A stretch of DNA of 64,000 nt from contig NZ_AP024646.1 in the NCBI RefSeq assembly GCF_019977235.1, forward strand, positions 1-64,000, given 5' to 3'. The notes beneath the pieces are model-generated. The model saw nothing but the letters and a program-made list of their open reading frames with translations. It was not told the DNA's origin and made no database searches. The stretch is from Arthrobacter sp. StoSoilB5. Its GTDB lineage: Bacteria; Actinomycetota; Actinomycetes; Actinomycetales; Micrococcaceae. Below are positions 17,568 through 23,788 of the stretch, piece by piece (position 1 is the stretch's first letter; the number at the start of each line of letters is the position of its first letter). The position numbers were made by a program, and so were the translations under genes.

Positions 17568-18110
17568 ATGACCATCGCAACCGCAAAAGCAACGATCCAC
17601 ACGAGCCTCGGCGACATCAAGGTTGACCTCTTCGGCAACCACGCGCCCAAGACGGTGGCCAACTTCATTGGCCTCGCTACGGGCGAAAAGTCCTGGACCC
17701 ACCCGGAAACCGGCGAAGACAAGACGGGTACGCCCCTTTACGACGGCACGATCTTCCACCGCATCATTAAGGACTTCATGATCCAGGGTGGCGATCCCCT
17801 GGGCCGTGGCGTTGGCGGACCGGGCTACAAGTTCGATGACGAAATCCACCCCGAACTGACCTTCAACGCTCCCTACAAGCTGGCCATGGCAAACGCTGGA
17901 ATCCAGATGGGCAAGGGCACCAACGGGTCACAGTTCTTCATCACCACGGTCAACACCGACTGGCTTTTCGGCAAGCACAGCATCTTTGGTGAGGTAGCCG
18001 ACGAGGAATCCCGCAAGGTTGTTGACGCCATTGAGGGCGTCCGCACCGGCATGGGCGACCGCCCCGTTGAGGACGTCGTCATCAACAGCATCGACATCGA
18101 ACAGCTCTAA
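17568..18110 (+). CDS. Cyclophilin-type peptidylprolyl cis-trans isomerase
   Basis: A 180-residue cyclophilin catalysing Xaa-Pro isomerisation. The core motifs FHRIIKDFMIQGGDP and GTNGSQFFITTV carry the catalytic Arg and the Gln/Phe of the active site. There is no signal peptide, so it is cytoplasmic. The rhomboid gene starts 21 bases downstream on the same strand; this pair is conserved near the origin in actinobacteria. Confidence 0.95.
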   Translation: MTIATAKATIHTSLGDIKVDLFGNHAPKTVANFIGLATGEKSWTHPETGEDKTGTPLYDGTIFHRIIKDFMIQGGDPLGRGVGGPGYKFDDEIHPELTFNAPYKLAMANAGIQMGKGTNGSQFFITTVNTDWLFGKHSIFGEVADEESRKVVDAIEGVRTGMGDRPVEDVVINSIDIEQL

Positions 18111-18131: not shown

Positions 18132-18986
18132 ATGAGTTACGGAATCCCGTCGGTAGAGCCGTCCGCTGCCATCCCGGTGTGCCCACGGCACCCGGACAGG
18201 CCCTCCTATGTGCGGTGCCAGCGCTGCGGGCGCCCCGCGTGCCCGGAGTGCCAGCGGGCGGCCGCCGTCGGGTTCCAATGTATTGACTGCGTCAACGAAC
18301 AAAAGCGCACGACGCCGACATACCGCTCGCCCTATGGCGGTGCCTTGGCAACCGGCCGGCCTTTGGTGACGTTTACGATCATCGGCTTGTGCGTGCTGGT
18401 TTACGTCCTCCAATGGATTGTGCCGGATGATGCGGTATTCCAGAATTTCGCGTTCGCAAATTTCGCGGCTGCCAGTGAGCCGTGGCGGATGCTGACGGCG
18501 GCCTTCCTTCACTCGCAAGGGTTCCTGCTCCACATAGTCCTGAACATGTACACGCTGTGGATCTTCGGACAAGCCCTTGAGCCTTTGCTCGGGCGCATCC
18601 GGTTCCTGGCCGTGTACCTGCTCTCTGCGGTCGGCGGCTCCGTGGGCTATCTGTTGTTGACTCCCACGTTTCCAGTGGTGGGCGTGGTGGGAGCTTCCGG
18701 CGCCATCTTCGGACTCTTCGGAGCCATGCTCGTGGTGCAGCGTCACCGCGGCGGTGAAACTAAACAACTATGGATCCTGATCGCCATCAATGGCGCCATC
18801 GGCTTCTTTGTTCCCAGCATTGCCTGGCAGGCCCACCTGGGTGGCTTGATCACTGGCGGCCTCGCTGCCGCTGCCATCGCATATGCCCCGCGGGGCAAGA
18901 ACCAAGCCCTGTTGCAAGCAGGCGGACTCCTCCTCGTGGCAGGCCTTTTAGCCGTGGTCGCGTGGTTCCGCGTCACTGCCGGTTAG
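18132..18986 (+). CDS. Rhomboid intramembrane serine protease with N-terminal zinc finger
   Basis: A 284-residue rhomboid protease. Residues 17-53 hold a Cys/His cluster of B-box type (CPRH, CQRC, CPEC, CIDC). Six membrane helices follow. The catalytic dyad is S189 in GASGAIFG and H235 in QAHLGG; the HxxxN-type helix is seen in HIVLNMYTLW. Co-directional with the cyclophilin. The 3' end overlaps the convergent GyrI-like gene by 14 bases. Substrates are unknown. Confidence 0.92.
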   Translation: MSYGIPSVEPSAAIPVCPRHPDRPSYVRCQRCGRPACPECQRAAAVGFQCIDCVNEQKRTTPTYRSPYGGALATGRPLVTFTIIGLCVLVYVLQWIVPDDAVFQNFAFANFAAASEPWRMLTAAFLHSQGFLLHIVLNMYTLWIFGQALEPLLGRIRFLAVYLLSAVGGSVGYLLLTPTFPVVGVVGASGAIFGLFGAMLVVQRHRGGETKQLWILIAINGAIGFFVPSIAWQAHLGGLITGGLAAAAIAYAPRGKNQALLQAGGLLLVAGLLAVVAWFRVTAG

Positions 18987-19611
18987 TTGCAACACTTCCC
19001 CCAACTGTGACCGGTTGCCGCAGTATCGTCCTGAGTTTCTCCGGTGCAGTACGGCGAGGGTCGCTGAGGTAGATCTCGTGATGCCTCCCCGACATCGTTA
19101 GGGACTCCCCAGGAATGAAGCTGTTGTGCATTTCCGCGAGCACTGGGCCCTCGTCGTCGTAAGGGCCTATGTGAAGGGTCTGGACGCTTAGCCCTTCATC
19201 GAATGTTTCCAATCGAAGACCGTCAATTGCCGGCCCTTGGCCCTTTTGGCTGACGATCCGACGCGCTTCCTCGAAGTGCTCTTGAGTGAGCCAATCGGGG
19301 ACCAAATTCATCAGGGTCCAATCCCAACGCGACTTATCCCTGGCGCTTGTGAAAGCATCCATGTCTTCGGCTGACCAGAGCCCTTCCAGAGGCATCACCG
19401 TGTAGTCGCGACCCAACTCCTGTTTGCTGAAGAACTTCATCTTGTAGGCGACCGGATAGATGGCGGTCAGCGCATCCCTGTAGTCCTGAGCGGTGTTTGG
19501 ATCGCCATGGCCGTCGATCATCAGGAACTGTAGGGCTGGAACCGTCACCACGGAAAACCTGCCTTGCGAAGCAGTGTAGGTATCGATCTGCTTTTTGAGG
19601 TCGACTTTCAT
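18973..19611 (-). CDS. GyrI-like small-molecule-binding domain protein
   Basis: A 212-residue protein of the GyrI-like (SRPBCC-independent, COG4832-type) family without a DNA-binding domain. Features are the FLMIDGHGDPN segment near residue 30, the conserved aromatic and Lys pattern YPVAYKMKFFSK, and the C-terminal HEIYLSDPRR typical of this family. Members bind small molecules; the ligand here is unknown. Its upstream side is the gene-free DnaA-box cluster. The ATG at 19611 was chosen over a GTG one codon earlier. Confidence 0.8.
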   Translation of the reverse strand: MKVDLKKQIDTYTASQGRFSVVTVPALQFLMIDGHGDPNTAQDYRDALTAIYPVAYKMKFFSKQELGRDYTVMPLEGLWSAEDMDAFTSARDKSRWDWTLMNLVPDWLTQEHFEEARRIVSQKGQGPAIDGLRLETFDEGLSVQTLHIGPYDDEGPVLAEMHNSFIPGESLTMSGRHHEIYLSDPRRTAPEKLRTILRQPVTVGGSVATNRQ

Positions 19612-19680
19612 CACAAGCGATCCAACTCCCCTACTGTCGCGTTCCTCAGGTTATCCACAAGTGTTGTCCACAGTGTGCGT

Positions 19681-19699
19681 AACTTACATCCGTGTAGTT
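19681..19699. repeat. Imperfect palindromic repeat, copy 1
   Basis: AACTTACATCCGTGTAGTT, matching copy 2 at 19900-19918 in 17 of 19 positions. It lies among DnaA boxes and may be a second protein-binding site. Confidence 0.6.
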
Positions 19700-19899
19700 A
19701 GGTATCCAGAGTGCCATGCGGCCTGTCAGGGCGGTAGATATCCCCCGAATGGCATGAATTCATCCACAGCTGTGGATAAGTTCGACCCACATCCTGGTTG
19801 GTTTGTGGACAAACTCGCCATTCTTGGGAGATCTGTGGATAAACCTGTTAATGAGCGCCCGGAGCGGGCTCTATCAACAGCCTTATCAACAATGTTAAT

Positions 19900-19918
19900 A
19901 ACTTACACACGTGTAGTT
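19900..19918. repeat. Imperfect palindromic repeat, copy 2
   Basis: AACTTACACACGTGTAGTT, with a perfect ACACGTGT core. It is preceded by TTAAT and sits between DnaA boxes, about 219 bases from copy 1. The binding protein is unknown. Confidence 0.6.
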
Positions 19919-20355
19919 CAGGACGTGTTTGGCACCTTTTAGGCTGCAAGCGCGCGGATCCACGCTCGGAAACCCACAAGTTTTCCCCACCTGTGGATAA
20001 CTTGGGGTTAGGGGGGTGTTGTTAAGTGGGTAACTCCCAGGGCTATGTCAGTGACCACACGTGCATGGAGCCGTCTTCGGATAGCATTTGGCTTGGCTTC
20101 GTCCGGTGAAACGATGGTTGAGTACATCCGTCAACACGTGGCTCGTGAACGTTCAGTGAAGACACAGCCACTATCCACAGCGTGATGCACAGTGGGTATA
20201 ACTAGGCTCCGGTTGATCGGGTAGTCCCGGATCGGCGCTGCGATAGGGGTTTCTGCGGAAAGTACGTGGATGTCCACAGAACTTATCCACGCCTGTGGAA
20301 AAAGTTACGCACTTCTGTGGAAAAGGACTGTGGGTTCTGCGGGCAGGAGGAAACC

Positions 20356-20973
20356 CTACTGCGGGCTTTGCTCCAGCCAGACGCCTGACGTGCCCCGTCT
20401 GTGGCTATCCACCAAGTGTGTGTCGATGATCCCCACTGCTTCCATCAGTGCATACATGGTGGTTGGGCCGACGAAAGCGAAGCCTTTCTTCCGGAGGGCT
20501 TTGGACAAAGCAACGGATTCGGGCGATGTGGTGGGAATGTCTGCGAAGGATCGGGGCGCCGGAGTGGTTTCCGGCTTGAAGGACCACACGAAGTCCACTA
20601 ATCCGCCCTCTGCCCGGAGGGCGATGGTGGCCTTGGCGTTGGTGATGGCGGCCTGGATCTTCAGGCGGTTCCTGACGATGCCGGCGTCCAGCATGAGCCG
20701 CTCCACATCCGCGTCTGTGAAAGCAGCGACGCTTTCGGGGTGGAAATCCAGGAAGGCCTTCCGGAAAGCATCCCGCTTCCGCAGGATGGTTGCCCATGAC
20801 AGGCCCGCCTGGAATGCCTCCAAGCTGATGCGCTCGTACATTCCTTGCTCGTCCCGGACGGGCATACCCCACTCGTGATCGTAGTAAGCCTGCATCAGCG
20901 GGTCCGAGGCAGCCCACAGCGGCCGCGCCAGGCCGTCCTGGCCGATGATGATGCCGGTTTCTTCCGTGGTCAT
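20356..20973 (-). CDS. tag: DNA-3-methyladenine glycosylase I
   Basis: Tag excises 3-methyladenine from alkylated DNA. The 205-residue protein keeps LEAFQAGLSWATILRKRDAF with the catalytic Glu, DAGIVRNRLKIQA, FVWSF and SKALRKKGFAFVGPT. The residues forming the zinc snap in E. coli Tag (Cys4, His17, Cys179) appear here as Pro, Tyr and Ser, with only the His175 equivalent kept. It lies 103 bases downstream of alkB on the same strand, so it may be the last gene of the alkylation-repair operon or have its own promoter. Confidence 0.92.
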   Translation of the reverse strand: MTTEETGIIIGQDGLARPLWAASDPLMQAYYDHEWGMPVRDEQGMYERISLEAFQAGLSWATILRKRDAFRKAFLDFHPESVAAFTDADVERLMLDAGIVRNRLKIQAAITNAKATIALRAEGGLVDFVWSFKPETTPAPRSFADIPTTSPESVALSKALRKKGFAFVGPTTMYALMEAVGIIDTHLVDSHRRGTSGVWLEQSPQ

Positions 20974-21076
20974 GATTGCTCCTCTGCGGCCGTCACGCGG
21001 ACGACGACCCCTGCTACTGCCTTTACGGATATTCTGCCCATTACCTGTGACAATCTAGCCGCGACGATCCAGTTCC

Positions 21077-21793
21077 CTAGGACAACCCGGTTACACGCAT
21101 GGTGATATTGATACGTCCGTGGGAGAGTCCACATCCGTCTGGGCAGGTTCCCGGGAGGACTTTCGGGATGCCGTGATACGCAAACCTTGATGGTCCGCCG
21201 AAAACGAAAAGGTCCCCCGAACGGAGTTCGACGTCCGTATATGGCTTGGTACGGGTCTGCGTGTTGCCGAAGCGGAACAGGCACGTCTCCCCGATGCTGA
21301 GCGACACCACCGGAGCATCGGATCGTTCGTCCTTGTCCTGATGCATGCCCATGGCGGCGCCACGATCGTAGAAGTTCACCAGCGCGGCATCGGGTGTGTA
21401 GTGGACGGCGAGTTCGGCCAGAGCCTGATGGCTTTCAGCTCCGGTGGAGTAAGCAGCGGATACCGCCTTCCTACCCAAGCGAAGCATCCACTCAGGGAAT
21501 TCGAGTACGGGGCGGCCGTTCACATCCGTAGCTTCCCGCGTATAGCGGTAGGGCTGCCAATGCCAACCGAGGCAAACGGTCCGGACAGACATCTGGTGCC
21601 CTCCTGGCAGTGTGGCCGCCCGAAGGGGCACCGGGCCCTGGGTCCATTCGCCAAAGCGTTGCACGATCCACCGCTGCTGCTCCAGATTGAGCCAGCCCGG
21701 CACATGCACTGCGCCGGGCGCTATGACACGAGGGCCCTCGTGGTTGGTGTCAGGCTGGACAAGAGCCAACGGAAACAGGGCGTCGTCACTCAT
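21077..21793 (-). CDS. alkB: AlkB-family Fe(II)/2-oxoglutarate DNA repair dioxygenase
   Basis: Oxidatively demethylates 1-methyladenine and 3-methylcytosine. From the ATG at 21793 the product has 238 residues. Metal ligands are H151 and D153 (GMHQDKDE) and H207 (FAYHGI); the 2-oxoglutarate arginine is in RINITMR (R227, R233). The LFRFGN and GDLFVFGG strands fit AlkB. Its ATG overlaps the stop of the preceding methyltransferase (ATGA), giving translational coupling. A longer frame to 21886 overlaps that gene and was rejected. Confidence 0.93.
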   Translation of the reverse strand: MSDDALFPLALVQPDTNHEGPRVIAPGAVHVPGWLNLEQQRWIVQRFGEWTQGPVPLRAATLPGGHQMSVRTVCLGWHWQPYRYTREATDVNGRPVLEFPEWMLRLGRKAVSAAYSTGAESHQALAELAVHYTPDAALVNFYDRGAAMGMHQDKDERSDAPVVSLSIGETCLFRFGNTQTRTKPYTDVELRSGDLFVFGGPSRFAYHGIPKVLPGTCPDGCGLSHGRINITMRVTGLS

Positions 21794-22419
21794 GCCGCAG
21801 CCTCTAGCGTGAGGAGCCTTCGTTTTGCCTCGGTGCCGCCGAGGTAACCGCCGAAAGTGCCATCCGATTTCACCACGCGGTGGCATGGCACAATGACTGG
21901 CAGCGGGTTGGTAGCGCAGGCAGTTCCGACGGCGCGGACGGCTTTGGGGCTCCCGGCAGCCTGGGCAACCTGTGCGTAGCTTTCCGTCCTACCGTAAGCG
22001 ATCTGCGGCAGATGGTGGAGGACGTTCAGGCGGAACCCGCGGGCCAGTTGGAAGTCCAGGGGAAGGTTGAAATCCTTGCGGGTGCCGCTGAAATATTCGT
22101 CCAACTGGCGGGCGGCGGCCTCAAGTTGGGAAGGTGCATGCAGGATGCGGGGGCTGACCGTGTTGGCCAGCAACTGCAATACGGCCTCGTGGTTCTCAAG
22201 CTCGAACGCTACGCGGACCACGCCATGCTCCGTAGCCGCCAAAAGCAACTTGCCTACGGGCGAGTCCACCACCGAGTACGCGATGTCCAAGGAATGGCTT
22301 TCCTGGGCAGCGCGGACAAGCCTCGCGTGGAGGCTGGACAGGGCGGGTTCGATTCCAGCGTCGAGGGGTTTAAGGAACATGGCAACCTCGGCGTGGTCCG
22401 GGAGTGATTCAAGAGTCAT
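21790..22419 (-). CDS. Methylated-DNA--[protein]-cysteine S-methyltransferase (MGMT/Ogt type, with N-terminal extension)
   Basis: Suicide enzyme that transfers the alkyl group from O6-alkylguanine to its own cysteine. The active site is C179 in VIVPCHRVV, and GRTESYAQVAQAAG is the helix-turn-helix entry. At 209 residues it has about 45 extra N-terminal residues compared with the minimal family. The start codon overlaps the stop of the sigma-factor gene (ATGA, 22416-22419), and its stop overlaps alkB. It therefore belongs to one tightly coupled operon. Confidence 0.93.
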   Translation of the reverse strand: MTLESLPDHAEVAMFLKPLDAGIEPALSSLHARLVRAAQESHSLDIAYSVVDSPVGKLLLAATEHGVVRVAFELENHEAVLQLLANTVSPRILHAPSQLEAAARQLDEYFSGTRKDFNLPLDFQLARGFRLNVLHHLPQIAYGRTESYAQVAQAAGSPKAVRAVGTACATNPLPVIVPCHRVVKSDGTFGGYLGGTEAKRRLLTLEAAA

Positions 22420-22979
22420 CGGATTTCTCCTTTCGCCGATGCTGGGACGGATGATTTGGGAACCAGGAAAGATTGGATGGATTCGGGCTCTTCGCGCAGG
22501 ATGGCGCGGAGCGCTTTCACACCATCGGATCCCGCACGGCGGGCGGCTTCCGGTGTGCCGCCCAACAGGGCTGCAATGTCGCGATAAGGAAGACCAGCCA
22601 AATAGTGGTAGGCCACTGCCTGGCGCTGTTTAGGCGGTAACTGCCCGACGGCGTTGAGCAGGTCCTCCTGGCTGTCACCCGGGATGCCAATCCGGGAAGG
22701 CCGCTCAGGGGGTTGGTCTACAGGCAACGCGCGGCGAGTGCTGGAACGGATGAGGTCAATGCATTTCCGGTGGGCAATAGTGACGAGCCAGGCCTCGAGA
22801 TTGGCATCTGCAGGGAGATCGGGATAAGCCTGCAGAGCCGCAAGAAACGTTTCGGACCACGCGTCGTCGGCCTCGTGGAGGCCCACGACCGCACGGCACA
22901 CCCGGAGCACAGTGGCGCCGTGTTCCTGGACAACTGCTTCGAACGGCCTCTTGGTGTGGGCCGGGTGCCGGCGCTGCAT
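22416..22979 (-). CDS. ECF-type sigma factor within the alkylation-repair operon
   Basis: A 187-residue sigma-70 family protein. Region 2 is FEAVVQEHGATVLRVCRA to TIAHRKCIDLIRSSTRR (about 13-84). Region 4 is LPPKQRQAVAYHYLAGLPYRDIAALLG plus the recognition helix (about 113-160). There is no adjacent anti-sigma gene. It overlaps the upstream methyltransferase stop by one base (TGATG) and the downstream one by four, so it is co-translated with both. It probably activates this operon, but its promoter target is not demonstrated. Confidence 0.9.
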   Translation of the reverse strand: MQRRHPAHTKRPFEAVVQEHGATVLRVCRAVVGLHEADDAWSETFLAALQAYPDLPADANLEAWLVTIAHRKCIDLIRSSTRRALPVDQPPERPSRIGIPGDSQEDLLNAVGQLPPKQRQAVAYHYLAGLPYRDIAALLGGTPEAARRAGSDGVKALRAILREEPESIQSFLVPKSSVPASAKGEIR

Positions 22980-23488
22980 CAGAAGAGCTTGCCCTCTTTC
23001 ACGACGGCTGGCTCTTCGAGCTCCAGAAGGAACCGCTTGTTGCGCAGTCCTCCCGCGTAGCCGGTGAGTTGCCCGTTACGTCCCACCACGCGGTGGCACG
23101 GAATGATGATGCTTATCGGGTTCCGGCCCACTGCGGATCCAACAGCCTGGGCCAAGTGGGGATCCCCCATCTCAAGAGCCAGTTCACCGTAGCTAACGGT
23201 TTCCCCAAAAGGAATGTGCTGGAGCCGCTGCCAGACCTTCTCTTGGAAAGCATTGCCGCGGGCCTCAAAAGGAACGTCGAATTGAGTGCGCTTTCCTTCG
23301 AGATACTCGCCGAGTTGGACACGGGTCTGATCGAAGAGCGGCTCTTCGATCCCTGCAGGGATTCCAAAGTAGTCCGGCGGAGGCATATGCCAGTGGCCTT
23401 CGTAAAAGATCCCCGTCAAAAACTCCCCGCGGGCAGTCAGCGTCAACTGCCCCAACGGGGAATCCATGGTGGTGTGCCTGGTGTTCAT
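22979..23488 (-). CDS. Methylated-DNA--[protein]-cysteine S-methyltransferase (MGMT)
   Basis: A second MGMT, 169 residues, of normal family length. The acceptor cysteine is C131 in IIIPCHRVVGRNGQ. FQEKVWQRLQHIPFGETVSYGEL is the characteristic helix and turn. First gene of the cluster methyltransferase-sigma-methyltransferase-alkB. It begins 45 bases after the end of crgA, so it could be read through from crgA or use a promoter inside that short gap. Confidence 0.94.
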   Translation of the reverse strand: MNTRHTTMDSPLGQLTLTARGEFLTGIFYEGHWHMPPPDYFGIPAGIEEPLFDQTRVQLGEYLEGKRTQFDVPFEARGNAFQEKVWQRLQHIPFGETVSYGELALEMGDPHLAQAVGSAVGRNPISIIIPCHRVVGRNGQLTGYAGGLRNKRFLLELEEPAVVKEGKLF

Positions 23489-23533: not shown

Positions 23534-23788
23534 CTAGGCGCGCCAGCGCGTAGTCATGAGGAATCCGATGATCGCGATGCCGAAGCCGGCAACGATGTTC
23601 CACGAAGCCCATTCCTGTACGGGAAACTTGCCCTCGGTGATGTAGTACGTGATGATCCAGATCAGCCCAAGGATCATCAGGCCGAACATGACCGGCTTGT
23701 ACCAAACGGGATTCGGCTTGTACTGCTGTGCGGCGGAAGTCTGCTGGGCCTGACGGGCAGGCCGCTTGCGGGGCTTGGACTCGGGCAC
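23534..23788 (-). CDS. crgA: Cell division protein CrgA
   Basis: An 84-residue small membrane protein of the CrgA family, an actinobacterial divisome factor that interacts with FtsZ and penicillin-binding proteins. The N-terminal basic region (ESKPRKRPARQA) is followed by NPVWYKPVMFGLMILGLIWI and a second helix VAGFGIAIIGFLM, ending TTRWRA. It is divergent from the sortase gene 170 bases away, as in other actinobacteria. Confidence 0.92.
   Translation of the reverse strand: MPESKPRKRPARQAQQTSAAQQYKPNPVWYKPVMFGLMILGLIWIITYYITEGKFPVQEWASWNIVAGFGIAIIGFLMTTRWRA

Follow-up and report, generated by a model that had tools for sequence, protein, structure and literature searches.

The window considered here is the whole 64,000-nt stretch of Arthrobacter sp. 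StoSoilB5 DNA that was analysed. Within it, the cyclophilin gene ppiA (17568-18110, + strand; Pfam PF00160) forms the left anchor of a locus in which a rhomboid-family gene follows (18132-18986, + strand; PF01694), with synteny kept in 80 loci. Downstream of the rhomboid gene lies a cluster of DnaA boxes (19651-20324), and between the two stands a gene for a GyrI-like protein (18973-19614, − strand). On its right the cluster is followed by tag, which encodes a 3-methyladenine glycosylase (20356-20973, − strand) and was found in 75 of the 80 loci, and farther on by crgA (23534-23788, − strand; Pfam CrgA, 2e-32). The placement of the cluster between a GyrI-like gene and tag, as described in an earlier note on this DNA, is supported by Pfam matches for both neighbours. 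The interval between the cluster and crgA (20356-23488) holds a block of alkylation-repair genes, namely tag, an alkB-like gene and two ogt-like genes, with a sigma factor gene between them, and the same order recurs in many of the 80 relatives.

The cluster is non-coding, lies about 18 kb away from the presumed start of replication and has a G+C content of 52%, compared with 62% for the whole window. The earlier note had counted six perfect TT(A/G)TCCACA boxes on both strands, along with at least six boxes carrying one mismatch. The recount agrees, with six perfect TTRTCCACA boxes, two on the + strand (19651, 19664) and four on the − strand (19771, 19804, 19834, 19992), and seven one-mismatch boxes (19760, 19883, 20171, 20270, 20283, 20294, 20316). 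All of the perfect boxes fall in the left half of the cluster (19651-20000), the right half being composed of one-mismatch boxes only, and convergent pairs occur among the boxes of the two strands. The whole window contains nine perfect boxes, against 0.47 expected from shuffled sequence. A scan of the entire genome (5,299,525 bp in one contig), which the note had put forward as a check, returned 100 perfect boxes, with 38 for the reversed-pattern control, and placed the maximum of six per 700 bp at the cluster. The remaining 94 boxes never exceed three per 700 bp, a density reached in the next-densest stretches at C1:2,387,921 and C1:5,223,249, and with 100 boxes randomly placed the Poisson probability of six in a given 700 bp is about 7e-15. 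As would be expected of a titration locus, this is a dense group of boxes outside oriC and the densest of its genome. The sequence TCCACAN{1,2}TGTGGA was found at only three places in the whole genome.

Other box groups were seen to the left of dnaA. A smaller one (L086:3710-4165, C1 about 5,223,235-5,223,690), with three perfect boxes in 437 bp as well as weaker ones, adjoins a dnaB-like (replicative helicase) gene about 76 kb left of dnaA. At L089:11140-11520 (C1 about 5,290,665-5,291,045), 8.5 kb left of dnaA, DnaA boxes stand beside and between two GTTTCACGTGAAAC sites, the sequence of parS.

The recurring unit of the cluster is a three-box module, in which two tandem boxes (start spacing 12-13) face one convergent box (10-11), these being the only spacings scanned. 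Module M1 (19651-19682, + strand) consists of TTATCCACA and TTGTCCACA followed by convergent TTACGCACA, with start spacings of 13 and 10 and two mismatches in 27 positions, and it matches R1, a model built from the modules discussed below, at 19650-19677 with 21.0 bits. It is abutted by a first palindrome copy, TAACTTACATCCGTGTAGTT (19680-19699, + strand). Farther right come a convergent pair, TCATCCACA / TTATCCACA, with a 2-bp spacer (19760-19779), and two more perfect boxes on the − strand (19804-19812 and 19834-19842). The degenerate module M2 (19871-19901, + strand; CTATCAACA, TTATCAACA and convergent TTATTAACA; 5/27 mismatches) is abutted in turn by the second palindrome copy, TAACTTACACACGTGTAGTT (19899-19918, + strand), and, as judged by eye in an alignment of 17 sequences, ranks with the best-conserved blocks of the cluster. 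Two further degenerate modules follow: M3 (19968-20000, + strand), which has six mismatches, includes the perfect − strand box at 19992 and matches R1 at 19974-20003 with 16.4 bits, and M4 (20171-20201, + strand), with five mismatches, only 5.8 bits under R1 and the conserved block CACTATCCACAG...CACAGTGGGTATAA. Module M5 (20270-20302, + strand; ATGTCCACA, TTATCCACG and convergent TTTTCCACA) again has two mismatches, with spacings of 13 and 11 and an R1 match at 20271-20303 (15.9 bits), and a convergent pair, TTACGCACT / TTTTCCACA (20305-20324), closes the right end. Five module placements with at most five mismatches occur in the window when overlapping ones are counted, whereas 200 simulated sequences of equal composition gave none. 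Because M1 and M5 are good modules, M2-M4 are degenerate ones within conserved blocks, and the simulations yielded no such placement, the cluster looks like an amplified array of an ancestral unit.

Conservation from Arthrobacter to the class Actinomycetes

Related loci were found with the rhomboid protein, and the best 80 of 302, from Arthrobacter, Paenarthrobacter and Pseudarthrobacter, were compared. In 77 of the 80, a 700-bp stretch downstream of the same rhomboid gene holds three or more perfect boxes, the groups beginning 0.85-3.3 kb after the rhomboid start; L022 and L034, where contig ends are close, and L053 fall below that count. When the window is aligned with 16 relatives, the boxes and a few other blocks are kept and the spacers have diverged. 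The GyrI-like gene stands beside rhomboid in L001-L016, and no tblastn match to it was obtained at E <= 1e-10 in L017-L080, where the cluster persists. It is probably a later neighbour, since it adjoins rhomboid only in L001-L016.

The rhomboid gene was likewise searched in 118 Actinomycetes genomes, and 40 loci from 28 families were read. DnaA boxes stand just downstream of the gene in many of these loci. Of the 40, 28 carry a module with no more than 6/27 mismatches within 1.5 kb downstream of the rhomboid gene, and three more carry one 3.5-4.3 kb downstream; the best module elsewhere in the same loci usually has 8-10 mismatches, and twice 7. The module scan was negative in nine (L171, L172, L174, L179, L181, L186, L195, L197 and L199), and three loci whose first-scan placements had 7-9 mismatches, no better than chance, were not counted as modules. 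In L177, L178 and L189, and in several of the cases at 1.5-10 kb, for example in family f17, the element is 3-10 kb from rhomboid; in families of this kind the probable cause is gain or loss of intervening genes.

Built from 24 of the 31 modules with at most six mismatches, R1 matches 264 of 295 genomes of the class at E <= 0.05, where about 15 would be expected by chance. Its best genome-wide match lies 0-10 kb downstream of rhomboid in 60 of 67 genomes, and within 1.5 kb in 46 of the 67, these being the genomes among the matches listed (E up to 4.8e-5) with a listed rhomboid gene; weaker matches, and the 31 of the 295 genomes that do not match, lie outside this count. For genomes outside the training of R1, the best match falls within 10 kb downstream of rhomboid in 39 of 45. 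In the family of the window itself (f1), 59 of the 61 genomes searched were matched, with some match within 1.5 kb downstream of rhomboid in 56 and the best match there in 42.

Among the exceptions to the 60, the module lies between ppiA and pabA in G042, G078 and G102, beside pabA in G135 (f22) and just upstream of dnaA in G089; G118, which has its best match in the dnaA-dnaN gap and its second beside rhomboid, and G090 are further exceptions. The position between ppiA and pabA is seen in five genomes of family f6, probably the Mycobacteriaceae, and in G044 (f8), for which no rhomboid gene was found, the module lies beyond a sortase gene and pabA at the contig end. Among the R1 matches listed for G498 and G517, the best stands some 14 kb upstream of rhomboid and none is next to that gene. 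Two families, f18 (probably Streptomyces) and f16, often have a weak module or no match to it, and they supply 15 of the 20 non-matching genomes listed (of 31). When the search was widened to the phylum, 149 genomes yielded 57 with an R1 match at E <= 0.001, and 49 of the 57 lie outside the Actinomycetes; the StoSoilB5 genome itself (E 0.00127) is missed at this threshold.

According to a crude gene caller applied to 38 modules, 19 lie between converging genes, 15 between genes of the same direction and one between diverging genes, with three inside a called frame. A minus-strand frame of 77-111 codons, approximately the size of CrgA, is found on the right of 24 of the 38, and is identified as CrgA by Pfam in the window and by eye in L188. 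The distance from the element to dnaA is 13.6 kb in G290, 19.7 kb in StoSoilB5 and about 47 kb in G118 and G059. Both the position downstream of rhomboid and the three-box geometry are class-wide, and the StoSoilB5 cluster looks like a local expansion of this element of the Actinomycetes.

A palindrome, TTACACNNGTGTAA or a near form of it, abuts the module next to ppiA/rhomboid, also class-wide. With at most 3/12 mismatches it is present beside 32 of 38 modules, compared with 0.23% of 2214 control draws. Of 31 cases, 23 have it on the far side of the module as seen from rhomboid and eight on the near side, and in 23 of 24 clear right-side cases the gap between palindrome and module is 0-2 bp. 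The genus-level motif TAACTTACANNCGTGTAGTT, which we take to be the local form of TTACACNNGTGTAA, has two copies in the StoSoilB5 genome when up to two mismatches are allowed, both in the cluster. With NNN in its middle, the motif recurs in all 75 loci having tag (40 exact, 31 with one mismatch and four only with three). A second protein probably binds the abutting palindrome. In ten genomes searched with at most one mismatch the palindrome is rare, with only one to three places in seven of the ten, for which reason its reading as a common regulon site was rejected; one of the places is the element in five of the ten, and in G139 and G054 the sole match is elsewhere.

Proposed function of the element and rival readings

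We consider it probable that the cluster is a cis-acting regulator of DnaA, as distinct from a gene promoter or the main origin, and that its array derives from an ancestral module. Some five three-box modules, of which two are good and three are degenerate, would make up the array in StoSoilB5, and from sequence comparison we infer that it probably grew by amplification of a single ancestral module, located downstream of ppiA/rhomboid in many Actinomycetes, near crgA where checked and, in the four genomes with a measured distance, 14-47 kb from dnaA. In each module DnaA would occupy two tandem boxes facing a third, convergent box, with a second protein probably seated on the abutting TTACACNNGTGTAA palindrome. 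As the locus would be copied soon after oriC fires, it most likely lowers the amount of free or active DnaA after initiation, by sequestration or by a head-to-head complex that blocks filament growth, such that re-initiation would be delayed. The sign of this effect is argued from position and from analogy, and sequestration or inactivation of DnaA is put forward on even terms with all other effects together, DARS-type reactivation coming next and help in cis to oriC after it; the DARS-like topology of the module would favour reactivation, counting against a lowering of DnaA. Some effect other than sequestration or inactivation, DARS-type reactivation or help in cis to oriC seems quite improbable.

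An actinobacterial DARS would use the convergent core to assemble ADP-DnaA head-to-head, release ADP and regenerate ATP-DnaA, the role of IHF/Fis falling to the palindrome protein, and this we regard as unlikely. The core of DARS1 in E. coli K-12 was found at NC_000913:813,107, where box I faces boxes II and III with starts 14 and 12 apart. A match of the same spacing at 2,969,135, upstream of mutH, was found by that spacing and is one that we take to be the DARS2 core; the core was not seen in the mutH-ygdR gaps, the first place looked. One review gives the box spacing as identical in DARS1 and DARS2 and the head-to-head contact of boxes I and II as a prominent DARS feature (PMC5742627). The topology of these cores, with box I opposite II and III, is shared by 31 of the 40 class loci at no more than six mismatches and by M1 and M5 in the window, and the II-III start spacing is nearly the same (12-13 in the module, 12 in E. 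coli). The I-II spacing, in contrast, is 10-11 in the actinobacterial module and 14 in E. coli, so that by spacing the element is not a DARS member despite its DARS-like topology. Additionally, R1 gave no match up to E 10 with the E. coli DARS1, DARS2 and datA stretches, and the array form in Arthrobacter looks more sink-like. DARS1 and DARS2 are distant from oriC, whereas the actinobacterial element is close to it, and where DARS2 has IHF/Fis sites the actinobacterial element has the abutting palindrome.

The earlier note had also offered an accessory or bipartite origin element, which would help unwinding or helicase loading at oriC or fire by itself. This is the weaker of its two readings and is clearly doubtful, even though the cluster has more boxes than the dnaA-dnaN gap, and its weak boxes and AT-rich block TTATCAACANTGTTAATAAC are strongly conserved. 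In the gap, the presumed oriC (1423-1985), the note's count of two perfect boxes holds (1466 and 1648), with three one-mismatch boxes besides. Thirty dnaA-dnaN loci of the genus were fetched, of which eight lay on the other strand and were left out, and each of the 22 extracted carries two perfect boxes, whose positions hardly vary. An alignment of 11 of these gaps shows strong conservation of tandem boxes with TTATTAACACTACGAATCCCAAAAAATTGAA, or a sequence close to it, behind them, and to the eye the gap resembles an ordinary origin that has trio-like repeats and an AT-rich tract. In the cluster, features of tandem boxes and unwinding are limited to the weak TTATCAACA/TTATTAACA boxes in the AT-rich block, and the modules are convergent; no convergent module was found in the StoSoilB5 gap, where the best placement has eight mismatches. 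The same module does occur in the gap of G118, where the genome's best match (1597-1632) lies, and this speaks for an origin role. G280, of the same family as G118 (f23), likewise has a match to the convergent module close to the start of its contig (C1:1709-1744).

A turn of the GC skew between dnaA and the element is compatible with an origin role in StoSoilB5 (turn at 10.4 kb, element at 19.8 kb) and in G118 (23.7 and 47 kb), but no clear turn is seen in G059, and in none of these three genomes does GC skew separate the gap from the element. The turn in StoSoilB5 and G118 is roughly midway between the two sites, perhaps from gene orientation alone. Kocuria presumably belongs to the same family as this Arthrobacter. 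Its putative oriC has been placed between dnaA and dnaN as well (PMC12500396), and the bipartite origins covered by a review have a spacer gene between their two parts and extend over about 2 kb (PMC4285127), not 14-47 kb. Because the dnaA-dnaN gap keeps an origin-like footprint of its own, the cluster is read as a DnaA-regulating locus and not as an origin.

Control of transcription, in which the boxes would regulate a neighbouring gene or the inverted pairs would serve as terminators of rhomboid or crgA, is very unlikely. The GyrI-like gene does start beside the cluster in the window, box pairs are inverted repeats, and the crude caller puts 3/38 modules inside a frame and 1/38 between diverging genes. 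Nevertheless, the cluster persists in L017-L080, where the GyrI-like gene was not found, 19/38 class modules lie between converging genes, and a third tandem box and a separate palindrome are conserved. The promoter or terminator reading was rejected on the ground that the neighbours change while the element stays. That the cluster is an accident of chance or composition in an AT-richer gap, as its 52% G+C in a 62% window might suggest, is scarcely credible, as shuffled and Markov controls fall short of the observed counts and the class-wide result, with position conserved across families, contradicts it.

Comparison with known DnaA-binding loci

Read as a regulator of DnaA, the cluster can be set beside datA, a negative regulator in E. 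coli, with which it shares the form of a non-coding group of DnaA boxes on the oriC side of the chromosome. According to a review, the essential boxes of datA all point in one direction and are accompanied by an IHF site (PMC5742627), whereas the cluster has boxes on both strands and convergent modules. The titrating locus of the datA, Bacillus or Streptomyces kind that the earlier note had favoured thus survives in part: a DnaA-regulating locus is the best-supported reading of what is the densest cluster of its genome, but its topology is not that of datA and resembles a DARS core. The clusters of Bacillus subtilis are similar in being groups of DnaA boxes outside the origin, and we know of no conserved module in them. 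For both B. subtilis and S. coelicolor, the same review describes analogous clusters as repressors of untimely initiation (PMC5742627). Deletion of six clusters in B. subtilis gives early initiation, the strong effect requiring all six, and a second review describes clusters with significant regulatory roles in that species as not identified (PMC5295017).

A search of the open literature found nothing on a DnaA-reactivating sequence in Actinobacteria and nothing linking DnaA boxes with crgA, and for DnaA ChIP-seq in Actinobacteria only AdpA work was found. To our knowledge, an Hda- or IHF-based DnaA cycle resembling the E. coli one has not been established in Actinobacteria, and a conserved syntenic element with a second motif would offer a defined target for testing DnaA control. 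Given the positional result (60/67 genomes, among the matches listed), the idea can be tested in Streptomyces and Arthrobacter as well as in their relatives. Tentatively, and with somewhat less than even confidence, it is proposed that throughout the class Actinomycetes the region downstream of ppiA/rhomboid, near crgA, holds a replication-control locus, in which a module of DARS topology and a partner-bound palindrome would together reset DnaA near oriC, and which would have been amplified to an array in Arthrobacter.

The nearest precedent is found in Streptomyces coelicolor, with its actinobacterial DnaA-box clusters outside oriC. Smulczyk-Krawczyszyn et al. reportedly described such clusters in 2006, under the names D78, H69 and H24. 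The name H69 presumably comes from a cosmid; as this cosmid may include the pknB-rhomboid region, H69 could be identical with the element described here. For D78 nothing was found in the open literature, and we know of no three-box module, palindrome or class-wide synteny from the work of Smulczyk-Krawczyszyn et al. Compared with these clusters, the occurrence of a three-box module with an abutting palindrome class-wide beside ppiA/rhomboid appears to be new.
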